A DNA stretch of 27,513 bases from a virus: positions 1-27,513 of IMG/VR virus record IMGVR_UViG_3300020000_000055; one strand, 5' to 3'. This document shows positions 5,079-26,729 of the stretch, piece by piece. The notes under the pieces are model-generated. The model searched no databases and was not told the origin of the DNA. It was given only the letters and a program-made list of their open reading frames with translations. Position 1 is the first letter of the stretch; every line of letters begins with the position of its first letter. The position numbers and the translations under genes were made by a program.

Positions 5079-5092
5079 TTTAATCATTGGTT

Positions 5093-5449
5093 ATGACAAA
5101 ACAAAAATCTCAAAAAAGAAATAGGCCTTTAAGAATTGATAAAACACCCGATGTATTACTTACTCCATTGAATAATATTGCAGATAATATGGGGGTAACA
5201 ATGACAGATTTATTGAGGCCAGAAGTAAGAAATATTGTGGATAGTTATCCGGAATATTTAAAAAGAAAGCCATCACAAAAAAAATGTAAGCATTGTGCGA
5301 TATATGGAGTTCCTACAAAAGTTATTGATGAGCTTTTTAATATCGCGGATAACTTAGATATTTCTTATGCAGCTATATTAAAAATAGGATTTACTAAACT
5401 GGAACAAGGTTTTCCAGAAAAGATGAAAAAGCCTAAGCCTAAGTTTTAG
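5093..5449 (+). CDS. Tandem ribbon-helix-helix-like putative DNA-binding regulator
   Basis: A 118-aa protein if started at the ATG at 5093 (a TTG two codons upstream is also in frame). It contains two ungapped copies of one unit of about 40 residues: copy 1 about residues 18-57 (LNNIADNMGVTMTDLL ... YPE) and copy 2 about residues 75-114 (LFNIADNLDISYAAIL ... FPE). Each looks like strand-helix-helix with the shared NIADN turn, typical of ribbon-helix-helix DNA-binding folds, so one chain could act as a pseudodimer. A CKHC pair lies in the linker. It is antisense to the structural genes and inserted between portal and protease; its stop overlaps the portal stop by 11 bp. No terminator separates the convergent ends. 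Regulatory function is inference from fold-like pattern and the nearby motif. Confidence 0.65.
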   Translation: MTKQKSQKRNRPLRIDKTPDVLLTPLNNIADNMGVTMTDLLRPEVRNIVDSYPEYLKRKPSQKKCKHCAIYGVPTKVIDELFNIADNLDISYAAILKIGFTKLEQGFPEKMKKPKPKF

Positions 5450-17695: not shown

Positions 17696-19222
17696 TTAAG
17701 CTACGTTAAGTGAACCAAAACTGAATCCTGCAGTTGCTTCTGTATCAGATATTATTACATATCCACTTCTTTTATAACGGAATTTAGTTTGAAATCTATT
17801 TGGATTAGTAGTACTAGTTGATACTTTAATAGAAGATTTCATGAAAGCGGCATCTGTAATAAGTCCTCTTTGCTCTAAATCATCCGCATATTTTCTTAAA
17901 ATTTGAACCCATTGTTTTGGTTTTATTGTTTTCGGAACTACCACTGCAGCATTATCAGCAACAATAGCATGGTCAACAACATTTATTTGCTCCAATAAAT
18001 AATATCCAAATTTAACATTGAAATCAATATCTAAATTTCTTACATAATTGAATTGTGCTGGGTTTTCTCCTACCGGATGGTAAGTTGTAACTATTTCCTG
18101 AATCACATATCTTTCTGCTCCCAAATCAACAGTAGAACAACCTTTTTTAACAAAAGAATCTCTATTGTTATAGTCAGCCATTGAACCAATGTTTTTATCG
18201 ATTGGTATAGGCATATCAGGATATGACATTCCGGAAACATCCAAATGCGGATTATCTTGTGCTTGTCTTCCTTTTAACAATGCTACGTTTGCAGCAGCTT
18301 CCATTGCTAAACCAGGTGAAAGAGGTGCAGGACAAATTGAAATTGTTACTTGTGAAGATCGGCTATCAGTTATTGTTGTTGGGTCATCTAAAACAGAGCC
18401 AGTTAACGCAACAAAAGGTTTCATGATAATGCCAGTATATCTTCCAGTTGGATTTTCTGGACTTGGAATCCCATTAAATGCTTCAAGAGCATCCATAATA
18501 GAAGTAACTGCACCATATGTATTAACAACAATTGTGTTCCATTCATTTGCAAATAATGCTAATGCTGCTGCAATACTTGGAGTTGCAGACCCAGACTGAA
18601 TAGAAGTAACTGTATAAGTAATTCCGGCTGCATTATTTCCAGTATCAATTGATACCGTTAATCCTTCAGCAGTTAATCCTTTCCATTTACTTTCAAGTCT
18701 TGCCTCATATCCAAAATAAGTTCCGATCATTGGACAACCAAGAACATTATTTACAGCATCTCTTATTTTTGCAGATATTTGAGATGTCGTATCTCCACTT
18801 ACAATATTAATATCATAATTAGAGCCATCAACATTTTTCCTTCCAGCAATCCTTAAAGTATGTGTAACATTAGCTGTTGCTGTTCCAACAGGAGTAACTT
18901 TTATTATTTTTGATACGGCACCTGCTGCTTGTGCTTGCGCGACTACAATTGTGGGGATTCCTCCAATACCGGCACCTGAATTAGGTCTTAAAATTCTCGT
19001 TGCAATATGGATTGGAGAGCCATATCCATAAAGATCGCCAGCTTGCTTTGCTGAAGTAATTTCTTTTGCCGATATGTCTAAACTACCCTGATTAGCAAAA
19101 TTAGCTTCTCCTAAAATTACTATTCTTTGAGGTAGATTCGGTGAAGTTTCGCTGAAATCTCCTGTCGATAAGAGATAACCAACTATTCTTGATATTCTTT
19201 CAGAGCCAACAGCATTAGACAT
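17696..19222 (-). CDS. Contractile tail sheath protein (Mu gpL-like)
   Basis: A 508-aa protein, the length of Mu gpL sheath. Family motifs are visible: near the N-terminus NLPQRIVILGEANFANQG (residues ~29-46), then a Gly-rich stretch with YGYGSPIHIATRIL, a variable central domain (around residues 100-260), and the conserved C-terminal half with RYVIQEIVTTYH, NLDIDFNVKFGYYLLEQ and RGLITDAAFMKSS. It wraps the tube and contracts at infection. It is the first gene of the leftward tail operon and its start lies 16 bp from the shared ACAAATTTGCTCAATA element. Confidence 0.92.
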   Translation of the reverse strand: MSNAVGSERISRIVGYLLSTGDFSETSPNLPQRIVILGEANFANQGSLDISAKEITSAKQAGDLYGYGSPIHIATRILRPNSGAGIGGIPTIVVAQAQAAGAVSKIIKVTPVGTATANVTHTLRIAGRKNVDGSNYDINIVSGDTTSQISAKIRDAVNNVLGCPMIGTYFGYEARLESKWKGLTAEGLTVSIDTGNNAAGITYTVTSIQSGSATPSIAAALALFANEWNTIVVNTYGAVTSIMDALEAFNGIPSPENPTGRYTGIIMKPFVALTGSVLDDPTTITDSRSSQVTISICPAPLSPGLAMEAAANVALLKGRQAQDNPHLDVSGMSYPDMPIPIDKNIGSMADYNNRDSFVKKGCSTVDLGAERYVIQEIVTTYHPVGENPAQFNYVRNLDIDFNVKFGYYLLEQINVVDHAIVADNAAVVVPKTIKPKQWVQILRKYADDLEQRGLITDAAFMKSSIKVSTSTTNPNRFQTKFRYKRSGYVIISDTEATAGFSFGSLNVA

Positions 19223-19238
19223 AGGAATAAATTTATTT

Positions 19239-19254
19239 TATTGAGCAAATTTGT
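19239..19254 (-). promoter_or_regulatory. Promoter-like element upstream of the tail operon
   Basis: The minus strand reads ACAAATTTGCTCAATA; a copy with one extra T is at 5000-5016 before the protease gene. Because terL transcription is stopped by the bidirectional terminator at 24644-24681 and the region between is transcribed the other way, the tail genes need a promoter here. The CAAATTTG core is one base off TAnnTTTG. Confidence 0.4.
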
Positions 19255-19282
19255 ATTATTAAAAATAAAAATTATAAATTTG
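19250..19282 (+). promoter_or_regulatory. Bacteroidota-type promoter of the glycosylation cassette
   Basis: TTTG at 19250-19253, a 21-bp gap, then TAAATTTG (exact TAnnTTTG) at 19275-19282. The ATG of the first cassette gene at 19288 is only 6 bp downstream, so the transcript would be leaderless or nearly so. The 19250-19253 box overlaps the palindrome CAAATTTG that also belongs to the opposite-strand element. Confidence 0.65.
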
Positions 19283-19299
19283 TGCATATGAAATGCATA
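19283..19299 (+). promoter_or_regulatory. Candidate operator, copy 2 of the 17-bp shared motif
   Basis: TGCATATGAAATGCATA, identical to the inverse of 5043-5059. It directly abuts the -7 box and covers the probable transcription start and the ATG at 19288. Part of it is therefore also coding sequence (codons 1-4 of the first glycosyltransferase), but the match is longer than coding constraint with the distant copy could explain. Confidence 0.55.
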
Positions 19300-20043
19300 A
19301 AAAATATTCGGGTCGGTATTATAATTCCAGATAGAAATGATCGACCAGAACTATTAAAAAATTGTTTGCGGATGCTTGAGGCGCAAACTTTACAACCCGA
19401 AATTATTGAGCTTATAAATTTCCATCCTAATTCTCATGAAAAAGATATTACATTAAGATACAGAACTGGATATGAAAAATTAAGGAATAAGGGGCTCGAT
19501 ATAATCGCATTTTGGGAAAATGATGATTATTATTCTAAAGACTACCTAGAAATAATGGTTAATAAATGGTTAGAAAAAGGACAACCTGATATGTTAGGAA
19601 CCGATTATACTATTTATTATCATTTAAGAAAAATAGCTTATTTTGTTTTCCATCATATTGATCGGTCAAGTGCATTAAGCACTTTAATAAAACCAGATTT
19701 GAAATTTCCTTGGTGTCAAGATACTGACCCATATACTGATATGTATTTATGGAGCCAATGTCACGAAATAAAAAACAAAGTTATATTTCATCCGGAAAAG
19801 CATATTACTATTGGAATAAAACATGGTGTTGGTCTACCTGGGGGAATTGGGCACACTGATGAATTACAAATTTTCATTAATCCAGATTTAAAAATTGATG
19901 AGAATGGAAATATTAGACAATATGGATTTTTAGAAGAGCATATGGATGAAGAAAGTTTTAATTTCTATAAAAATTATTTACCACCATTCACAAAACAAAC
20001 TTTAAAAATAATTAACGGTACTCCTATGATGGTACCAGAATGA
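19288..20043 (+). CDS. GT-A type glycosyltransferase-like protein (cassette gene 1)
   Basis: A 251-aa protein from the ATG at 19288 (a GTG at 19282 is in frame but overlaps the -7 box). N-terminus VGIIIPDRNDRPELLKNCLRML is the beta1-loop-helix opening of GT2-type nucleotide-sugar-binding folds; IIAFWENDDYYSKDYLE (DD at residues 79-80) corresponds to the DxD-type metal/nucleotide site. The C-terminal half is unlike common GT2 proteins and includes a GVGLPGGIGHTDE stretch. No membrane segments, so it acts in the cytoplasm. It is the first gene of the cassette and overlaps gene 2 by ATGA. The sugar and acceptor are unknown. Confidence 0.7.
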   Translation: MKCIKNIRVGIIIPDRNDRPELLKNCLRMLEAQTLQPEIIELINFHPNSHEKDITLRYRTGYEKLRNKGLDIIAFWENDDYYSKDYLEIMVNKWLEKGQPDMLGTDYTIYYHLRKIAYFVFHHIDRSSALSTLIKPDLKFPWCQDTDPYTDMYLWSQCHEIKNKVIFHPEKHITIGIKHGVGLPGGIGHTDELQIFINPDLKIDENGNIRQYGFLEEHMDEESFNFYKNYLPPFTKQTLKIINGTPMMVPE

Positions 20044-20855
20044 AAATAAATTATATTATGGAAAATGGCTACTATTGGATAAAAAACGGCCCAACATGGG
20101 ATATTGCTTACCATATTGGTGGAAAAAAATTCTTATTTCCTGGTCAAGGCAATTCACAAGAAGTACAAGAAGAACATATAATAAACCCTAAATTAATTCC
20201 ACCTATGAAAATAACATTAATTCACCCATCAAGAGGAAGAGCTTTAAAAGCTAAACAAACATTAGACTATTGGATGGAAAGAGCCAGTGGCAACAATGAA
20301 ATTGAACACATTCTTTCACTTGATAAAGATGATAATCAAGTAGAACAGTATATTATTCAATTCAATGGAAAATCAAAAATTTTTATTGAAGAAAATGATT
20401 CAGTAGTTATGGCGGCAAATAGAATTGCACTAGAAGCCACCGGTGATATTTTTCTTTATCTTTCAGATGATTTTAAATGCCCATTGAACTGGGATAAATT
20501 AATTATTAATAAAATCGGTCTTCGTGAAATATGTATGTTAAGAGTAAATGATAAACTCCAGCCAATGGATAATTGCGTACTAACAATTCCAATAATGACA
20601 AAGGGTCTTTATAATCTCCTGGGATATTTCTTCTATCCTGAATACAAAAGTATGTGGGTGGATTGTGATCTTTATTTTGTTACAAAACCTCATATGATCG
20701 AAGCCCCTGAATTAGAATTTAGACATGAACATCAAAAAGACGGTAATGATGAAACATATGAAAGAAGTAATCTAAATTGGAATCAAGGAGTTGATATTTT
20801 TAATAGGAGAAGTGCAGAATTTGGATGGGGAAGAGCTTTTAATCGGATTCCTTAA
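20040..20855 (+). CDS. Glycosyltransferase-like protein with an N-terminal YYW extension (cassette gene 2)
   Basis: A 271-aa protein. The GT domain begins at Met56 (MKITLIHPSRGRALKAKQTL), reached by an internal ATG at 20205, and includes NRIALEATGDIFLYLSDDF (SDD at residues 142-144), the usual DxD-like end of the first Rossmann half. The first ~50 residues are a separate small module, ENGYYWIKNGPTWDIAY then FLFPGQGN, resembling the short W-rich domains found next to other phage genes. ATGA coupling supports the long start. No membrane segment. Acceptor unknown; a GT2-like role is inferred. Confidence 0.68.
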   Translation: MKINYIMENGYYWIKNGPTWDIAYHIGGKKFLFPGQGNSQEVQEEHIINPKLIPPMKITLIHPSRGRALKAKQTLDYWMERASGNNEIEHILSLDKDDNQVEQYIIQFNGKSKIFIEENDSVVMAANRIALEATGDIFLYLSDDFKCPLNWDKLIINKIGLREICMLRVNDKLQPMDNCVLTIPIMTKGLYNLLGYFFYPEYKSMWVDCDLYFVTKPHMIEAPELEFRHEHQKDGNDETYERSNLNWNQGVDIFNRRSAEFGWGRAFNRIP

Positions 20856-20863
20856 TAAAAAAT

Positions 20864-21421
20864 ATGATAAAACTATCCATTTTAATCCCAACGTTAACTG
20901 AAAGAAGCAATTACTTAGATTCTATGCTTCGTAATTTGAATGCCCAAAGGACATTTGAAATAGAAATACTGGTTGATAAAAGAGCAAGAGAAATAACAAC
21001 CGGAGAAAAAAGGAATGATTTATTACAAAAATCTGCTGGAAAATATACTGTTTTTGTAGATGATGATGATGAAGTGCCTCCTTATTATATTCAAGAAATA
21101 TTGATAGCCATTGAGCAGGAACCAGATGTTATAACTTTTAATGGATTTATGACCACCGATTCTTTTAATAGGATTGATTGGGAAATAAGAGTAGGGCATC
21201 CATATCAAGCTGTTCAAAGAAATGGAAAAGAGTTTTATGTAAGATTCCCAAATCATCTTTCACCAATGAAAAGAGAGCATGCGATTAAAATCCCATTCCC
21301 ACATATAACATTAGGAGAAGACTATGCCTGGGCAAATAAATTAAATGATCTAGGATTATGGAAAAAAGAAGTTATCATAGATAAACACATGTATCATTAT
21401 AAATTTACAACACATAAATAA
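20864..21421 (+). CDS. GT2-family glycosyltransferase (cassette gene 3)
   Basis: The 185-aa protein has the clearest GT2 signature in the cassette: LSILIPTLTERSNYLDSML (residues 4-22), then GEKRNDLLQKSAGKYTVFVDD and DDDE (residues 66-70), that is the KRN...AxGxYxxFxDDDD pattern with the metal-binding DxD. A catalytic-base-like LGEDYAW (GED) occurs near residue 157, as in GT2 'ED' motifs. It is short for GT2 enzymes and lacks C-terminal membrane helices, consistent with a soluble enzyme. 8 bp separate it from gene 2. Confidence 0.85.
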   Translation: MIKLSILIPTLTERSNYLDSMLRNLNAQRTFEIEILVDKRAREITTGEKRNDLLQKSAGKYTVFVDDDDEVPPYYIQEILIAIEQEPDVITFNGFMTTDSFNRIDWEIRVGHPYQAVQRNGKEFYVRFPNHLSPMKREHAIKIPFPHITLGEDYAWANKLNDLGLWKKEVIIDKHMYHYKFTTHK

Positions 21422-21424
21422 ATT

Positions 21425-22057
21425 ATGTATAGTCAAAATGAAGAAGAACAATTTATACTTGAATTCTTTAGAAAAAGAATTCAAGGAACACTGATAGATA
21501 TAGGTGCAAATGATGGAAAAACATTTTCTAATTCACTTGCCCTAATTGAAAAAGGATGGAATGCTGTATTAGTGGAGCCTTCAAAATATGCATTTTCAAA
21601 AATAATGGAGCTCCATAAAGGCAGAAATGAAGAAGTAATAGCAGTCAATTGTGCTATAGCAATGGTAAATAGTAAAGTTATTTTGCATGAATCTGGCCCG
21701 CATTTAAAAGATAATTCTGATTTTGCTTTATTAAGCACTTTAAAACCTGAAGAAACAACAAGGTGGAAAAATGCTGGAGTTCCATTTACAGAAGAAGTAG
21801 TTGATGCAATAACTTTTAAAGAGTTAACTAAATTAACCGGTAAAAAGAAGTTTGATTTTATAACTATTGATTGTGAAGGATTAGACTATGAGGTATTGAG
21901 CCAAATAAATTTAGAAGATACTGAATTAATTTGCATAGAATTTAATTCTAGCCAGGAGAAGAAGGCGCAAATTTTAAATTACTGTGCTAGATTTGGAATG
22001 GGAAAAATTATTTATGAAAACGCTGAAAATTTATTAATATGCAAAGAAGAACAGTAG
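21425..22057 (+). CDS. FkbM-family SAM-dependent methyltransferase (cassette gene 4)
   Basis: The 210-aa protein shows the FkbM layout: TLIDIGANDGKTFSNSLAL (SAM-binding loop DIGANDG at residues 25-31), AVLVEPS (acidic Glu51 after beta2), VNCAI, and near residue 149 FDFITIDCEGLDYEVL, the DCEG motif of the family. FkbM enzymes O-methylate sugars and related hydroxyls. Within this cassette the likely substrate is a sugar added by the neighbouring glycosyltransferases (inference). The 3' end overlaps the next gene by 19 bp. Confidence 0.88.
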   Translation: MYSQNEEEQFILEFFRKRIQGTLIDIGANDGKTFSNSLALIEKGWNAVLVEPSKYAFSKIMELHKGRNEEVIAVNCAIAMVNSKVILHESGPHLKDNSDFALLSTLKPEETTRWKNAGVPFTEEVVDAITFKELTKLTGKKKFDFITIDCEGLDYEVLSQINLEDTELICIEFNSSQEKKAQILNYCARFGMGKIIYENAENLLICKEEQ

Positions 22058-22749
22058 TTAGTTTTGCAGATGGTGTAGGCCATTATGCAAAGGCATTGAT
22101 GAGACTTGAATTATCGTTAAAACAAGTGAATTTTGATGGTAATTTTAAAGGAATAAATGATTACGGACACATAAATTCACCTTTACATAAGAATGTACCA
22201 GATGCAGTTCCTTATGCATTCAAAGCTTTATCCATAAAAAAAGCCATTGAAGAAGGTGCAGAAATCTTACTTTGGTGTGATTCCGTTGTATATGCCACTA
22301 AGAATTTAACTCCAATTTTTAATCATATTGAAAAATATGGATATATTTTCTTTGATAATATTGGTTTTTCAATCGGTGATTATACTTCTGATGCGTGTTT
22401 AAGAAAATTTGGGATGAGTAGAGAAGAAGCATTTAATAGTAAAATGTTAATGGCATGTGTTATGGGATTCGATATACGTAATCCAAAAGCAAAAGAATTT
22501 TTAAATCAATATATTGCAGCCGCTTCTGATGGAATTTCTTATTTAGGTGATTGGACAAATGAAAATTGCCAAGTTTCTCAAGATATGAGGGTGAAAGGTC
22601 ATAGGCATGACCAATCTGTTGCAAGTATTTTAGTTAAACAAATGAATTTACAAATTACAAGAGCCCAGGAAACATTTTTTGCATACGCATCGCATAAAGG
22701 AATTTTGCCGATTGCCGATAGTGTTTCTTTGTGGTCAGAAGGAATCTAA
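22039..22749 (+). CDS. GT-A-like putative glycosyltransferase with HRHDQS motif (cassette gene 5)
   Basis: A 236-aa protein starting inside the 3' end of the methyltransferase gene. Residues 75-82 (EILLWCDS, Asp81) look like the DxD-containing strand end of a GT-A fold, and KGHRHDQSVASILV (residues 187-199) resembles the conserved HDQ segment near the end of several GT-A families in which the His/Asp/Gln contact the nucleotide-sugar. FFDNIGFSIGDYTSD may form the acceptor loop. I am unsure of the exact family. No signal or membrane segment. Its position in the cassette supports a sugar-transfer role. Confidence 0.58.
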   Translation: MQRRTVVSFADGVGHYAKALMRLELSLKQVNFDGNFKGINDYGHINSPLHKNVPDAVPYAFKALSIKKAIEEGAEILLWCDSVVYATKNLTPIFNHIEKYGYIFFDNIGFSIGDYTSDACLRKFGMSREEAFNSKMLMACVMGFDIRNPKAKEFLNQYIAAASDGISYLGDWTNENCQVSQDMRVKGHRHDQSVASILVKQMNLQITRAQETFFAYASHKGILPIADSVSLWSEGI

Positions 22750-22768
22750 TAACATAAAAATATAAAAA

Positions 22769-23425
22769 ATGGGAGTTACAGCATTTGACATTGAGCTTTT
22801 AGAAAAAGCAATTTCATTTAGTAAAAATATTGAATCAGTTTGTGAATTAGGTTCTCAAAATTTATACATATCTAATGAAGAAAAACCTCCATTTGCTAGT
22901 ATATGGTATGAAAAAAAGAACATAAGGTATGCTTGCATAGATTTAGCTGGAGATAATAATTCAATAAGACTTGATTTAGCAAATCCAATAGAAGTAGAAA
23001 GGCAATTTGATTTAGTAACTGATTTTGGAACTTCGGAACATGTAGTTCAAATGGAAGGATTTGAATCAATATCATTTCATGAGGGCCATATAAATTCAAT
23101 ATACCCAAAGGGTAATATAAAAAGTATTGAAGAAGGTTATTATAACTGTTGGAAAAACAAACATAACCTTTTAAATATTGGTGGTTTAATGATAAATGTA
23201 AATCCAAAAACTGGCCATTGGCCAGGGCATGGTTATACATATTTAACGGATGATTTTTATTTGGGATTATGTAAAATTGCTGGGTATCAAATACAAGAAG
23301 TGGGGCAAAATTGTGCAATGGGAAATTGTGAAACCGGTATTAATATTTACAGTATTTTGAAAAAGACAAGCGAACTTTTTCCATCATTTGAAGAATTTAA
23401 AAAATTACCATTATTTAGAATATGA
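22769..23425 (+). CDS. Class I SAM methyltransferase-like protein (cassette gene 6)
   Basis: A 218-aa protein with a degenerate Rossmann methyltransferase pattern: VCELGSQN (residues 24-31) instead of a standard DxGxGxG, then RYACIDLAGDNNSIRLDLANP (beta2 acidic end and motif II; IDL at 57-59 and DL at 69-70), FDLVTDFGTSEHV (residues 80-92, post-motif strand) and later GLMINVNPKTGHWPGHGY as the beta5/beta6 region. It probably methylates a sugar or small acceptor. 20 bp separate it from gene 5 and it overlaps gene 7 by 4 bp (ATGA). Confidence 0.68.
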   Translation: MGVTAFDIELLEKAISFSKNIESVCELGSQNLYISNEEKPPFASIWYEKKNIRYACIDLAGDNNSIRLDLANPIEVERQFDLVTDFGTSEHVVQMEGFESISFHEGHINSIYPKGNIKSIEEGYYNCWKNKHNLLNIGGLMINVNPKTGHWPGHGYTYLTDDFYLGLCKIAGYQIQEVGQNCAMGNCETGINIYSILKKTSELFPSFEEFKKLPLFRI

Positions 23426-24228
23426 AATTAGCAGCTATTTATAATGTATGGGATGGAGATGAACTATTACCATACTCAATTGCAAGCATATTAGAATATG
23501 TTGATGTTATAATTATTATTTGGCAAGAACATTCTAATTATGGAGAATATTATTATCCTGAAGTTGGTCAATCTAATCTAAATTTTGATGCTTTCCATAG
23601 AAAAATTGCAGGAATAGCCAAAAAAGAAAAACCTGTCCAATTAATCACATCAGTTAAATATATTTATCAAGAATATAAGCCAGTTTCAAATAGTGGCGCA
23701 TCAAATGAAACAAGCAAAAGAAATATTGGTCTAGATATAGCTAAAGAAGAAGAATGTACCCATTTTCTTTTTATGGATTGCGATGAATCATATCAGGATT
23801 TCGGTAAAGCAAAAAAAGAATTTATTGATTCTGATGCAGATGGTTCAGTTTGTGAACTTTTCACGTATTGGGTGAACCCAACATACCAATTGGAGCCAAA
23901 AGAGGACTATTTTGTGCCATTTATTCATAAATTAAGGAAGAATACCTTAGCCGGTATGCAAGAATATCCTTGGTGGTGCGACCCTACAAGGAGAGTAAAT
24001 GAACAAAATGTAGTAAAAATCGCTTCTTGTATGCATCATTTTAGCTATGTTAGAAATGATATTGAGCGTAAATTAAGGAATTCTAGTGCAAAAATTAATA
24101 TAGAAAAATCTACTTATCTTGAAGATTACAAAGATTTAAAGAGAACTTTGGCTCCATCAGGTCATTATATTCCTTGTATGAAAAGAAATATTAAAATTGT
24201 TGATAACATTTTTAATATTTATATATAA
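23422..24228 (+). CDS. GT2-like glycosyltransferase (cassette gene 7)
   Basis: A 268-aa protein with LAAIYNVWDGDELLPYSIASIL at the N-terminus, of the kind seen in GT2-like enzymes with a 'DxxLPY' acceptor helix, and THFLFMDCDESY with a DxD motif at residues 119-121. EGxH-like catalytic elements are not clear; the C-terminal part has WWCDPTRRVNEQ and CMHHFSYVRNDIERKL. The last residues YI precede a gap without a terminator before the exported-protein gene. No transmembrane segments. Function inferred from fold pattern and cassette context. Confidence 0.7.
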   Translation: MKLAAIYNVWDGDELLPYSIASILEYVDVIIIIWQEHSNYGEYYYPEVGQSNLNFDAFHRKIAGIAKKEKPVQLITSVKYIYQEYKPVSNSGASNETSKRNIGLDIAKEEECTHFLFMDCDESYQDFGKAKKEFIDSDADGSVCELFTYWVNPTYQLEPKEDYFVPFIHKLRKNTLAGMQEYPWWCDPTRRVNEQNVVKIASCMHHFSYVRNDIERKLRNSSAKINIEKSTYLEDYKDLKRTLAPSGHYIPCMKRNIKIVDNIFNIYI

Positions 24229-24283
24229 ATTACTATATTAGTACTTTATATTTACAGTTAACTAAAAAACTTTTAAAAAAATT

Positions 24284-24622
24284 ATGCGAAAATTTCTAAT
24301 TTGCTTTATGATACCGTGTTGTACGTTTTCAACTGCCAGTTTCGCTTCTGACAGGGCACCAACTAAAAAAGCTGAATATGGTTATTCAATAACTATAATT
24401 GAAAATCAAAATCAGGAAATTCCTGAAATTCAAAACAACTTGTATTGCTTGAATGAATATATTGAGTGGCGGGAAAGTGAAAACTTATCTACTATAAAAA
24501 TAAATAAAATTCATTTTCAATTACATACAAGTAAAAATTTGCAAAAAGTCTCACATGAAAAAAAATTGATAAGAGCGACAATTAGGTATCTACCGTATTG
24601 CTCTAATCATAGTTTAAATTAA
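24284..24622 (+). CDS. Small secreted protein (moron-like), unknown function
   Basis: A 112-aa protein with an N-terminal signal peptide: MRKFLICFMIPCCTF then a small-residue end TASFA, so cleavage near residue 22-24 is likely. The mature part (~88 aa) is polar with two further Cys residues (LYCLNEY and YLPYCSN), compatible with a disulfide in the periplasm or outside. It is the only exported protein in the window, follows the glycosylation cassette by 55 bp and ends just before the bidirectional terminator. A TATATTTA sequence at 24247-24254 is a weak -7-like box, so it may be separately transcribed. No known family recognised. Confidence 0.55.
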   Translation: MRKFLICFMIPCCTFSTASFASDRAPTKKAEYGYSITIIENQNQEIPEIQNNLYCLNEYIEWRESENLSTIKINKIHFQLHTSKNLQKVSHEKKLIRATIRYLPYCSNHSLN

Positions 24623-24643: not shown

Positions 24644-24681
24644 AAAAAATCCGATGTGAGATTACTTACATCGGATTTTTT
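24644..24681. terminator. Bidirectional rho-independent terminator
   Basis: Left arm AAAAAATCCGATGTGAG (24644-24660), loop ATTA, right arm CTTACATCGGATTTTTT (24665-24681). The core 12 bp pair with one G-T wobble, and an A-run on one side and a T-run on the other give each strand a terminator. It separates the plus-strand cassette from the minus-strand terL, whose stop TAA begins at 24683. Confidence 0.9.
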
Positions 24682-26729
24682 TATAATATTATTCTTCCTA
24701 CAGCAATATCTACATATTCCTTCCAAGTAAAATTACTTCTTTTTAATTTTTTTGCCAGGTCAAAAACTATAATATCTAATAAGACTTTTGAATAAATAAA
24801 ACAATCCCATAAGTGATTTTGCCTCATTGCATTTATCTTAACCCACCTCATTCCAGTAATTTGACCATCTGCTCCTTTTTCCTCAACTCTATGCTCTGCA
24901 GCAAAATGTTCATAAAAGTTCTCATACATATATAATCCTGATGAAGGAATTGGAAAATTCATAAACCAATGAGGCTGTTGTTCATCATTATTTTCATCCC
25001 ATCTTAGATTTATCATCTCAGCAACTTCATCTTTAACTTTATTTCCCATTACTAAATAGAGATTAGGTCTTTCTTTACCAACATTAAATGTTCGAATATT
25101 GGCATTTATTTTTAAAAATTTTTCTGAATCTCCTTTTAAGCATACTATATTTTGCCTAGTGTCAACATATTCATATGCATAATTAGTGTATTGACCAGTA
25201 TCAACACCGGTAATAGCTATTATCATTCTTCTATCAGTATCAGTAAAAAAATCCATGTTTCTGATTTTATCAAATTCTGGCCAAACACTATTTGGCCTAT
25301 TATGCTCATAAGTTGAACGAATTCTATCTATTTTATATTTCATCGCGTTCTCCATAGGAATAAAAGTCCCAATACTACCATGTGAAATGCTATAACTTGC
25401 TCCTGTTTCACTCCATGCGGTTATTAAATAATCCAATCTAGCATCTTCAACTTTACCATTCAAATCACAAGCACAGGTTAATAAAACAATTTTGCCATTT
25501 CCATCTTTTATAGATAAAGATTCTGGTATAGTTAATATTTGATAGGGCCTAGTGTTCTTTTGAAGTTTATTTGCATTAATTTCTTGCCCTTCATCTTTAA
25601 ATGTTTCTCCTAATACTAAATTTGTAAATGTTTTTGCCTTGGCAATTCTTATTGGTTGATTTTCAGGATATGCATCAATATATTGGTTAACATAATGTCT
25701 CCAACCAAACATACCTGGGGGAGCATATAAAGAAGATATTTGATAGGAATAATAGCCTTCATCTTTAGGTTCGGCGGTTGGCTCCCATCTACCAGCTAAG
25801 TTCATTTCAAATTTAGTTTCATCAGTAAAAAAATTAGAACATTTTTGACATATATAGCCAACACTACTCTGTATTAAACGACCTTTTTGATCTGTTTTCC
25901 AATAAATACCTGCCTTTTCTTTACTATCAATATCAACAGACCATAAAAGAATAATATATTCTTTACAAACTGGGCATGGAACATGATAGCGTCTTTGATC
26001 TCCCATTAAATAAACATCTTCAATGTTACTTCCATCTGCCAATTCGGGTGTAGATATAAAATATGCTTTCATTTTACTATCATATGCAGCATGTCTTTGT
26101 AATATCAATTCAAATATGCTTCCTGATTGTTTTGAACTAGATTTAGCCTTTTCATAATCATCATTAAAACTAAATTGAATCGAACGTTGTGCAAGTAATT
26201 TATGATTTGTAGCACTACCTGACACCATACTACCTCCTGGAAATTCTTTGCTTTTATTAGTATCACCAGTCCTCATATTTTTTTTTCGTATTACATTGGG
26301 CCTAATTAGTGGTCTTAATCCAGCACTATCAATCATTTGGTCAACTCTACCCATAGCTTCTTCAGATAATTCAGCGTGCCCCGTAAGAAACATTATATTA
26401 CCCGGGTTTTGAGATATTATCCAACCTTGTCCAGGATAAATAACTCCAGTACTAAAACCAATTTGGGCTCCCTTTTTACATGCAATAACTTTTGCTGGAT
26501 GATTTGGGCTTAAACAATCTATTATTTCTCTACAATATGGTGTTTTGTCATATGAAAATCTACCAGGAAAAGCACTTACTTCTGATGTAAGGATAATATT
26601 TTGTTCGGCCCATTGAGATGGGCTTATATTAGACAGATACAATAATGAGCTATCCAACAGTTCTTCCAACTGTTTCTCATAAAATATCTTATTCTCTTTC
26701 CCCAACTCCTTTAGTAGATGAGTATTCAT
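24681..26729 (-). CDS. Terminase large subunit (lambda gpA family)
   Basis: The 682-aa protein fits lambda gpA (641 aa). Walker A-like KKGAQIGFSTG at residues 85-95 and FSFNDDYEKA at 187-196 (D190/D191 Walker B) form the packaging ATPase; PCPVC (251-255) and CQKC (294-297) form the zinc ribbon of the GpA type. The nuclease half has CACDLNGKVEDARLDY (Asp422), ITGVDTGQ (Asp510) and NHLWDCFIYSKVLL (Asp642), the acidic metal-binding positions. It cuts concatemers at cos-like ends and pumps DNA. It overlaps the small subunit by 41 bp in another frame and ends at the shared terminator. Confidence 0.95.
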   Translation of the reverse strand: MNTHLLKELGKENKIFYEKQLEELLDSSLLYLSNISPSQWAEQNIILTSEVSAFPGRFSYDKTPYCREIIDCLSPNHPAKVIACKKGAQIGFSTGVIYPGQGWIISQNPGNIMFLTGHAELSEEAMGRVDQMIDSAGLRPLIRPNVIRKKNMRTGDTNKSKEFPGGSMVSGSATNHKLLAQRSIQFSFNDDYEKAKSSSKQSGSIFELILQRHAAYDSKMKAYFISTPELADGSNIEDVYLMGDQRRYHVPCPVCKEYIILLWSVDIDSKEKAGIYWKTDQKGRLIQSSVGYICQKCSNFFTDETKFEMNLAGRWEPTAEPKDEGYYSYQISSLYAPPGMFGWRHYVNQYIDAYPENQPIRIAKAKTFTNLVLGETFKDEGQEINANKLQKNTRPYQILTIPESLSIKDGNGKIVLLTCACDLNGKVEDARLDYLITAWSETGASYSISHGSIGTFIPMENAMKYKIDRIRSTYEHNRPNSVWPEFDKIRNMDFFTDTDRRMIIAITGVDTGQYTNYAYEYVDTRQNIVCLKGDSEKFLKINANIRTFNVGKERPNLYLVMGNKVKDEVAEMINLRWDENNDEQQPHWFMNFPIPSSGLYMYENFYEHFAAEHRVEEKGADGQITGMRWVKINAMRQNHLWDCFIYSKVLLDIIVFDLAKKLKRSNFTWKEYVDIAVGRIIL

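Follow-up and report, generated by a model that had tools for sequence, protein, structure and literature searches.

A recurrent, modular phage locus of soluble glycosyltransferases and methyltransferases with a probable role in virion glycosylation

Analysis of the virus record IMGVR_UViG_3300020000_000055, a complete IMG/VR record of 27,513 bases that is referred to here at its full length as the window, revealed a contractile-tailed phage (myophage) carrying a cassette of seven closely packed enzyme genes (G1 to G7, 19282-24228) on the plus strand, opposite to the late genes, between the genes encoding the terminase large subunit (terL) and the tail sheath (Table 1). The minus-strand late genes encode TerS, TerL (GpA type), sheath, tube, tape measure, baseplate, hub, portal, protease, decoration and capsid proteins. 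A reversed block of five glycosyltransferase-like proteins (G1, G2, G3, G5 and G7) and two methyltransferase-like proteins (G4, of the FkbM family, and G6) had been described in a first-pass annotation of this DNA, and is confirmed by open reading frames (ORFs), family matches and structure models. What is new here is the finding, from comparison with other phage contigs, that the cassette recurs in phages as a modular locus.

Regarding the organization of the cassette, the tight operon with overlaps of 4-19 bp that had been reported holds for three joints (4, 19 and 4 bp), while the other three are gaps of 8, 3 and 19 bp. The G+C content is about 30% in the cassette block vs about 34% in its surroundings. 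A promoter of its own had also been proposed; a candidate (TTG-N21-TAAATTTG) does lie ahead of G1 but is not conserved among relatives, and a sigma-70 scan gave no enrichment over shuffled sequence. The bidirectional terminator was recovered as an inverted repeat with folding z-scores of -9.9 (plus strand) and -8.1 (minus strand), flanked by A and T runs. The small, putatively secreted protein thought to end the operon was rejected as a cassette part, being an orphan without a homologue in any fetched relative locus, and its ORF probably lies outside the conserved cassette.

The enzymes differ in how closely they match known families. The family profile of G1 (A11) matches the PDB glycosyltransferases 8viw and 3bcv (E about 5e-4); G1 is distantly related to G3 and is found in nearly all phages of the window type. 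Homologues of G3 are present in actinophages. G4 scores above the curated cut-offs of both of its families (PF05050, 52.7 bits, cut-off 22.7; TIGR01444, 55.9 bits, cut-off 37.7). No Pfam family was matched by the sequences of G5 and G7, which are predicted from high-confidence models to be GT-A glycosyltransferases. Foldseek matched the G5 model to LARGE1, XXYLT1 and alpha-1,3-galactosyltransferase (probability 1.0, E about 1e-6 to 1e-5), and the matches to the G7 model were led by the peptide glycosyltransferase SunS (E 3e-8) and the collagen galactosyltransferase COLGALT1; the TM-scores are moderate (0.4-0.6), so that these matches give the fold class, not the specificity. The structure comparison suggested in the first-pass annotation has in this way assigned a predicted GT-A fold to both proteins. 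G6 had no Pfam match and no solved relative was found for it (best methyltransferase match E 0.5), but the motifs (D/E)LG-QN-Y and DxGTSEH are kept across 16 diverse homologues and its sequence suggests that it is probably a methyltransferase. Profile comparison gave no tie between G6 and FkbM. A tblastn search of 50,697 isolate phage records detected no match to G5 or G6, and G7 was matched weakly, in Lak megaphages.

Table 1. Features of the cassette and its borders in the window.
Feature	Position	Strand	Evidence or remark
Tail sheath gene, border of the site	17696..19222	-	phrog_165, 6.6e-76
Candidate Bacteroidota-type promoter, TTG-N21-TAAATTTG	19251..19282	+	Pattern scan, about 0.02 expected by chance in a 160-base stretch
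G1, GT2-like glycosyltransferase, first cassette gene	19282..20043	+	Start GTG 19282 or ATG 19288
G2, GT-A-like glycosyltransferase, core family	20040..20855	+	phrog_14945 glycosyltransferase, 1.3e-11
G3, GT2 glycosyltransferase	20864..21421	+	PF00535, 9.5e-10; phrog_8858, 2.2e-28
G4, FkbM-family methyltransferase	21425..22057	+	PF05050, 7.3e-14; TIGR01444, 6.4e-15
G5, predicted retaining-type GT-A glycosyltransferase, GT6/GT8-like fold	22039..22749	+	AlphaFold pLDDT (predicted local distance difference test) 96.8
G6, methyltransferase-like, conserved family without Pfam entry	22769..23425	+	Motif evidence only
G7, predicted GT-A glycosyltransferase, conserved last enzyme	23422..24228	+	AlphaFold pLDDT 92.4; 28-member alignment
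Small ORF, hydrophobic N-terminus	24284..24622	+	55 bp gap after G7
Bidirectional intrinsic terminator, cassette/terL boundary	24651..24682		Inverted repeat, T runs after it on both strands
Terminase large subunit (GpA type), border of the site	24681..26729	-	PF05876, 2e-45; phrog_15, 2e-121

When viral contigs were scanned with G3, G5, G6 and G7, about 200 loci were obtained, of which 162 were left once near-copies had been taken out; TerL by itself detected no window-type phages, and the G5, G6 and G7 profiles were therefore used to find them. By profile search, 121 deduplicated loci hold three or more of the cassette families; they fall into at least seven unrelated arrangements, the commonest core order being G2-G3-G4-G5-G6. 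Their backbones include siphophage types (phrog_2 terminase, phrog_12 portal), types with a phrog_11226 portal and the window type, and lineages rather than loci were taken as the independent units. Since the gene set and its order recur in many other phages, the cassette is more than a chance assembly, and the search for the gene set proposed in the first-pass annotation has replaced the single unusual insertion seen there by a common locus that recurs in over ten relatives of this phage type. No description of it was found in the open-access literature searched. In the L104 group (e.g., L104:7063-11839), where the cassette lies between primase and terminase, five shared families are permuted (G2 G4 G6 G3 G5) and joined by an extra phrog_7162 glycosyltransferase. 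Homologues of G7 also occur in Sphingobacteriales and Cytophagales genome contigs (L240, L241), which have downstream ORFs in common (about 160, 101, 550, 66 and 875 aa) and look like another phage arrangement.

The window-type relatives show how the content of the cassette varies at one site. The cassette lies between TerL and sheath in G001, G002, G005, G007-G009, G012, L163, L168, L175, L178 and L238, usually reversed relative to the late genes and sometimes not, and in G010 it is relocated next to the portal. The ends are stable (G7 kept, G1 mostly kept), whereas the middle genes vary; across loci the variable genes encode GT1-like, GT47-like and GT10-like enzymes, methyltransferases of the FkbM, TylF and Methyltransf_24 families, a WbqC-like protein, a radical-SAM protein (found at L177:6769-7575 in the variable middle of a window-type cassette) and many proteins without a family. 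In one cassette (that of L002) G6, at L002:11844-12131, is down to a 95-aa remnant through an apparent internal in-frame deletion and a TylF methyltransferase has been added, possibly a swap of methylation pattern. A quick tree of G3, with one lineage label for each sequence, requires a minimum of four switches between the window type and other lineages of phages, from which it follows that cassette genes have probably moved between phages. The divergence of the cassette genes is about equal to that of the backbone, which indicates a long-term resident locus, not a recent insertion. The exception is G5, with 76-78% identity in several pairs of phages that are 29-61% identical in their structural genes; it is the most conserved gene in comparison with several relatives, suggesting an unusually constrained donor or acceptor.

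Regarding the phage itself, the TerL proteins nearest to that of the window are those of the myophages Cellulophaga phiSM and Flavobacterium FCV-1 (about 37%). Both have related TerL, sheath, tube, baseplate, portal and capsid proteins (28-49% identity), but no cassette homologue was found in the stretches examined, and other genes lie between terL and portal. The C-terminus of the sheath is mostly AGFNFGTLN or similar in cassette phages and ends at AGF in the cassette-less phiSM and FCV-1; since these two also form a separate lineage, the sheath tail is no more than a tentative candidate for a substrate site. An integrase was not found in the window record. The prophage relative L238 lies inside a Bacteroidetes metagenome-assembled genome, adjoined by an integrase and then bacterial genes, a context that points to a Bacteroidota host and to a temperate lifestyle in this relative; an integrase is also present in two other window-type records. 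A small plus-strand ORF (5087-5449), antisense to the late genes, lies between protease and portal in the window, and most window-type relatives have a short antisense ORF (62-131 aa) at this spot, as judged by position.

The cassette is consistently found beside packaging and structural genes. Of the 120 loci that have flanks, 102 have a terminase, portal, head or tail gene no more than two ORFs away, and most of the others reach the contig edge or have unlabelled neighbours. PHROGs confirm structural neighbours on unrelated backbones, where the site differs. In L003 and L030 the cassette precedes terL, in L038 it lies between terL and portal, in L190 it stands between a head gene and portal, in L027 it adjoins the major capsid protein (MCP) gene, and in the window type it is between terL and sheath. 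Similarly, among actinophages, the copy in Mycobacterium phage Lucky2013 follows MCP and that in Gordonia phage Yvonnetastic precedes terL. In the other mapped lineages, unlike in most window-type phages, the cassette shares the strand of the late genes. For six full or partial records of different lineages, the probabilities of such placement at a random junction multiply to 5e-5, a value that is optimistic since the structural landmarks were partly seeded from cassette neighbours.

Among the closest known systems are the virion-glycosylation operons of the mycobacteriophages Che8 and Corndog. Glycosylated proteins are reported for Che8, Corndog and Myrna in one source, which also names Che8 gp110 and Corndog gp38 as essential to the glycosylation of the capsid (PMC12363180); another places the glycans on the C-termini of capsid and tail-tube proteins (PMC12619734). 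The G3 profile matches the N-terminal domain of Che8 gp108 (E 6e-57), and the TylF methyltransferase of the relatives matches its C-terminal domain (E 6e-36); gp108 is a fusion of a G3-type glycosyltransferase and a TylF methyltransferase, the latter being a separate gene in L002. Soluble glycosyltransferases in a short operon are common to both systems, and some actinophage copies adjoin the capsid gene or terL. The Che8 operon, however, has three genes and the cassettes have seven to about a dozen, including the FkbM, G5, G6 and G7 families that are not in the Che8 operon; unlike the Che8 and Corndog operons, the cassette belongs to phages of a Bacteroidota host and is polymorphic in content at one site.

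On the sequence evidence, the best explanation, held with somewhat better than even confidence, is that the cassette is a modular phage locus for cytoplasmic glycosylation, through which the phage's virion proteins receive a variable, partly methylated glycan. A methylated oligosaccharide on the virion or another intracellular component had been offered in the first-pass annotation, and the direction of that proposal is supported by the placement, the homology to Che8 gp108 and the lack of export genes and of thymidylate synthase set out below. Several points weigh against virion glycosylation. The sources are nearly all uncultivated phages and many contigs are fragmentary; the virion proteins show no convincing substrate signature; and the best cassette profile match to the Che8 ORF containing gp110 has an E of 0.2, no clear homologue, so that membership in the Che8/Corndog system is partial. 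In addition, the window-type cassette usually runs against the late genes and has its own terminator, as a lysogen-expressed moron could, and soluble glycosyltransferases can also use host lipid-linked intermediates.

The last two points lead to the main rival, host-surface conversion in the lysogen or at the time of infection, in which the soluble enzymes would alter lipid-linked O-antigen, capsule or O-glycan intermediates, borrow the host's priming transferase and flippase, and block superinfection. The integrated L238 prophage and the integrases of two other records are in keeping with it, as are G7 relatives in bacterial genomes outside a clear phage context, the WbqC-like protein in one cassette, and the interpretation of pelagimyophage glycosyltransferases as O-chain modifying enzymes (PMC7029224). 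Known genes for assembly and export were not found, however. No convincing transmembrane helix was detected in any of the seven enzymes, in agreement with the first description of the cassette; one hydrophobic stretch of G7 is slightly above threshold, and its confident model is nonetheless a globular GT-A fold. By hydropathy scan, at least two hydrophobic stretches occur in 5 of 705 ORFs of the cassette spans, none of a cassette family. A polyprenyl-phosphate sugar transferase (PF02397) and a Wzx-type flippase (PF01943) were not found in 21-24 records, which extend the search beyond the window into longer records of relatives, nor was GtrA (PF04138) in 21 records, with positive controls in each case; a sugar transferase or flippase of this kind beyond the window had been named in the first-pass annotation as what would refute its proposal. 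Phage-encoded lipid-linked assembly and export is therefore unlikely. The gtrA-gtrB-gtr modules likewise consist of phage-borne glycosyltransferases, and the cassette is, like them, often opposed to neighbouring phage genes, but it lacks GtrA and a membrane glycosyltransferase (GtrB or GtrX), a difference in membrane proteins that had been pointed out from the start. With O-antigen and capsule loci it shares variable middle glycosyltransferases and methyltransferases, constant end genes and exchange between lineages, but it has no Wzx-family flippase or initiating phosphotransferase and sits in the phage head/tail block; a recognisable polymerase or sugar-nucleotide enzyme was not found among the genes scanned. 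With the placement in packaging and head blocks of several unrelated lineages, the late-gene strand in the other mapped lineages and the homology to the Che8 operon also opposing it, host-surface conversion is rather unlikely.

DNA hypermodification, a glycan built on modified phage bases for escape from restriction, was considered as well. One usual route of DNA glycosylation requires a thymidylate-synthase homologue, and none (PF00303) was found in 21 records, some perhaps incomplete, with positive controls; DNA glycosylation is therefore not favoured. TET/JBP (PF12851) gave no match in 24 records, some perhaps incomplete, in a search without positive control. The cassette is beside structural, not replication genes, except in the L104 group and some siphophages with a primase nearby. 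Phage glycosyltransferases are described as placing diverse glycans on DNA (Pyle et al., 2024, cited in PMC12619734), and yet this explanation is very improbable for the cassette. A non-virion intracellular target, such as a host protein or a phage-made peptide, is suggested by SunS, among the closest folds to G7, which glycosylates a secreted peptide, and by the adjacent small orphan ORF as a potential substrate. That ORF is missing from every relative, and so long a series of enzymes, exchanged as it is between phages, is a better fit to an exposed, variable glycan, which makes an intracellular non-virion target improbable.

Under virion glycosylation, with expression presumably late in infection, the first sugar would be joined by one enzyme to the side chain of a residue in an abundant virion protein. 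For this attaching step G7 is the strongest candidate, since no other end gene is as constant and the solved structures nearest to it in fold are glycosyltransferases of peptides or proteins. The soluble G1, G2, G3 and G5 would lengthen a short glycan using host nucleotide sugars, and G4 and probably G6 would tailor it by methylation. Since the middle genes are exchanged between phages, the glycans would differ between relatives that have the cassette at one and the same position in the genome, comparable to O-antigen variation, and selection would probably come from whatever recognises the particle.

Glycosylation of phage-particle proteins has been reported from a handful of mycobacteriophages. 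It is about evenly balanced whether the interchangeable glycan locus in the structural block of unrelated environmental phages is a viral counterpart of O-antigen and capsule loci that brings about serotype variation of virions. The cassette adds G5 and G7, two conserved enzyme families that have confidently predicted folds and are absent from Pfam, and the conserved putative methyltransferase family of G6. It also bears on the annotation of phage glycosyltransferases, which are often classed with host-surface or auxiliary metabolic genes. If virion glycosylation is true, sugar coats of virions would be widespread in Bacteroidota phages and other environmental phages and would diversify like bacterial surface antigens, with longer, methylated, variable glycans made from a common modular locus, and this would bear on adsorption and on the recognition of particles by hosts, grazers and immune systems.

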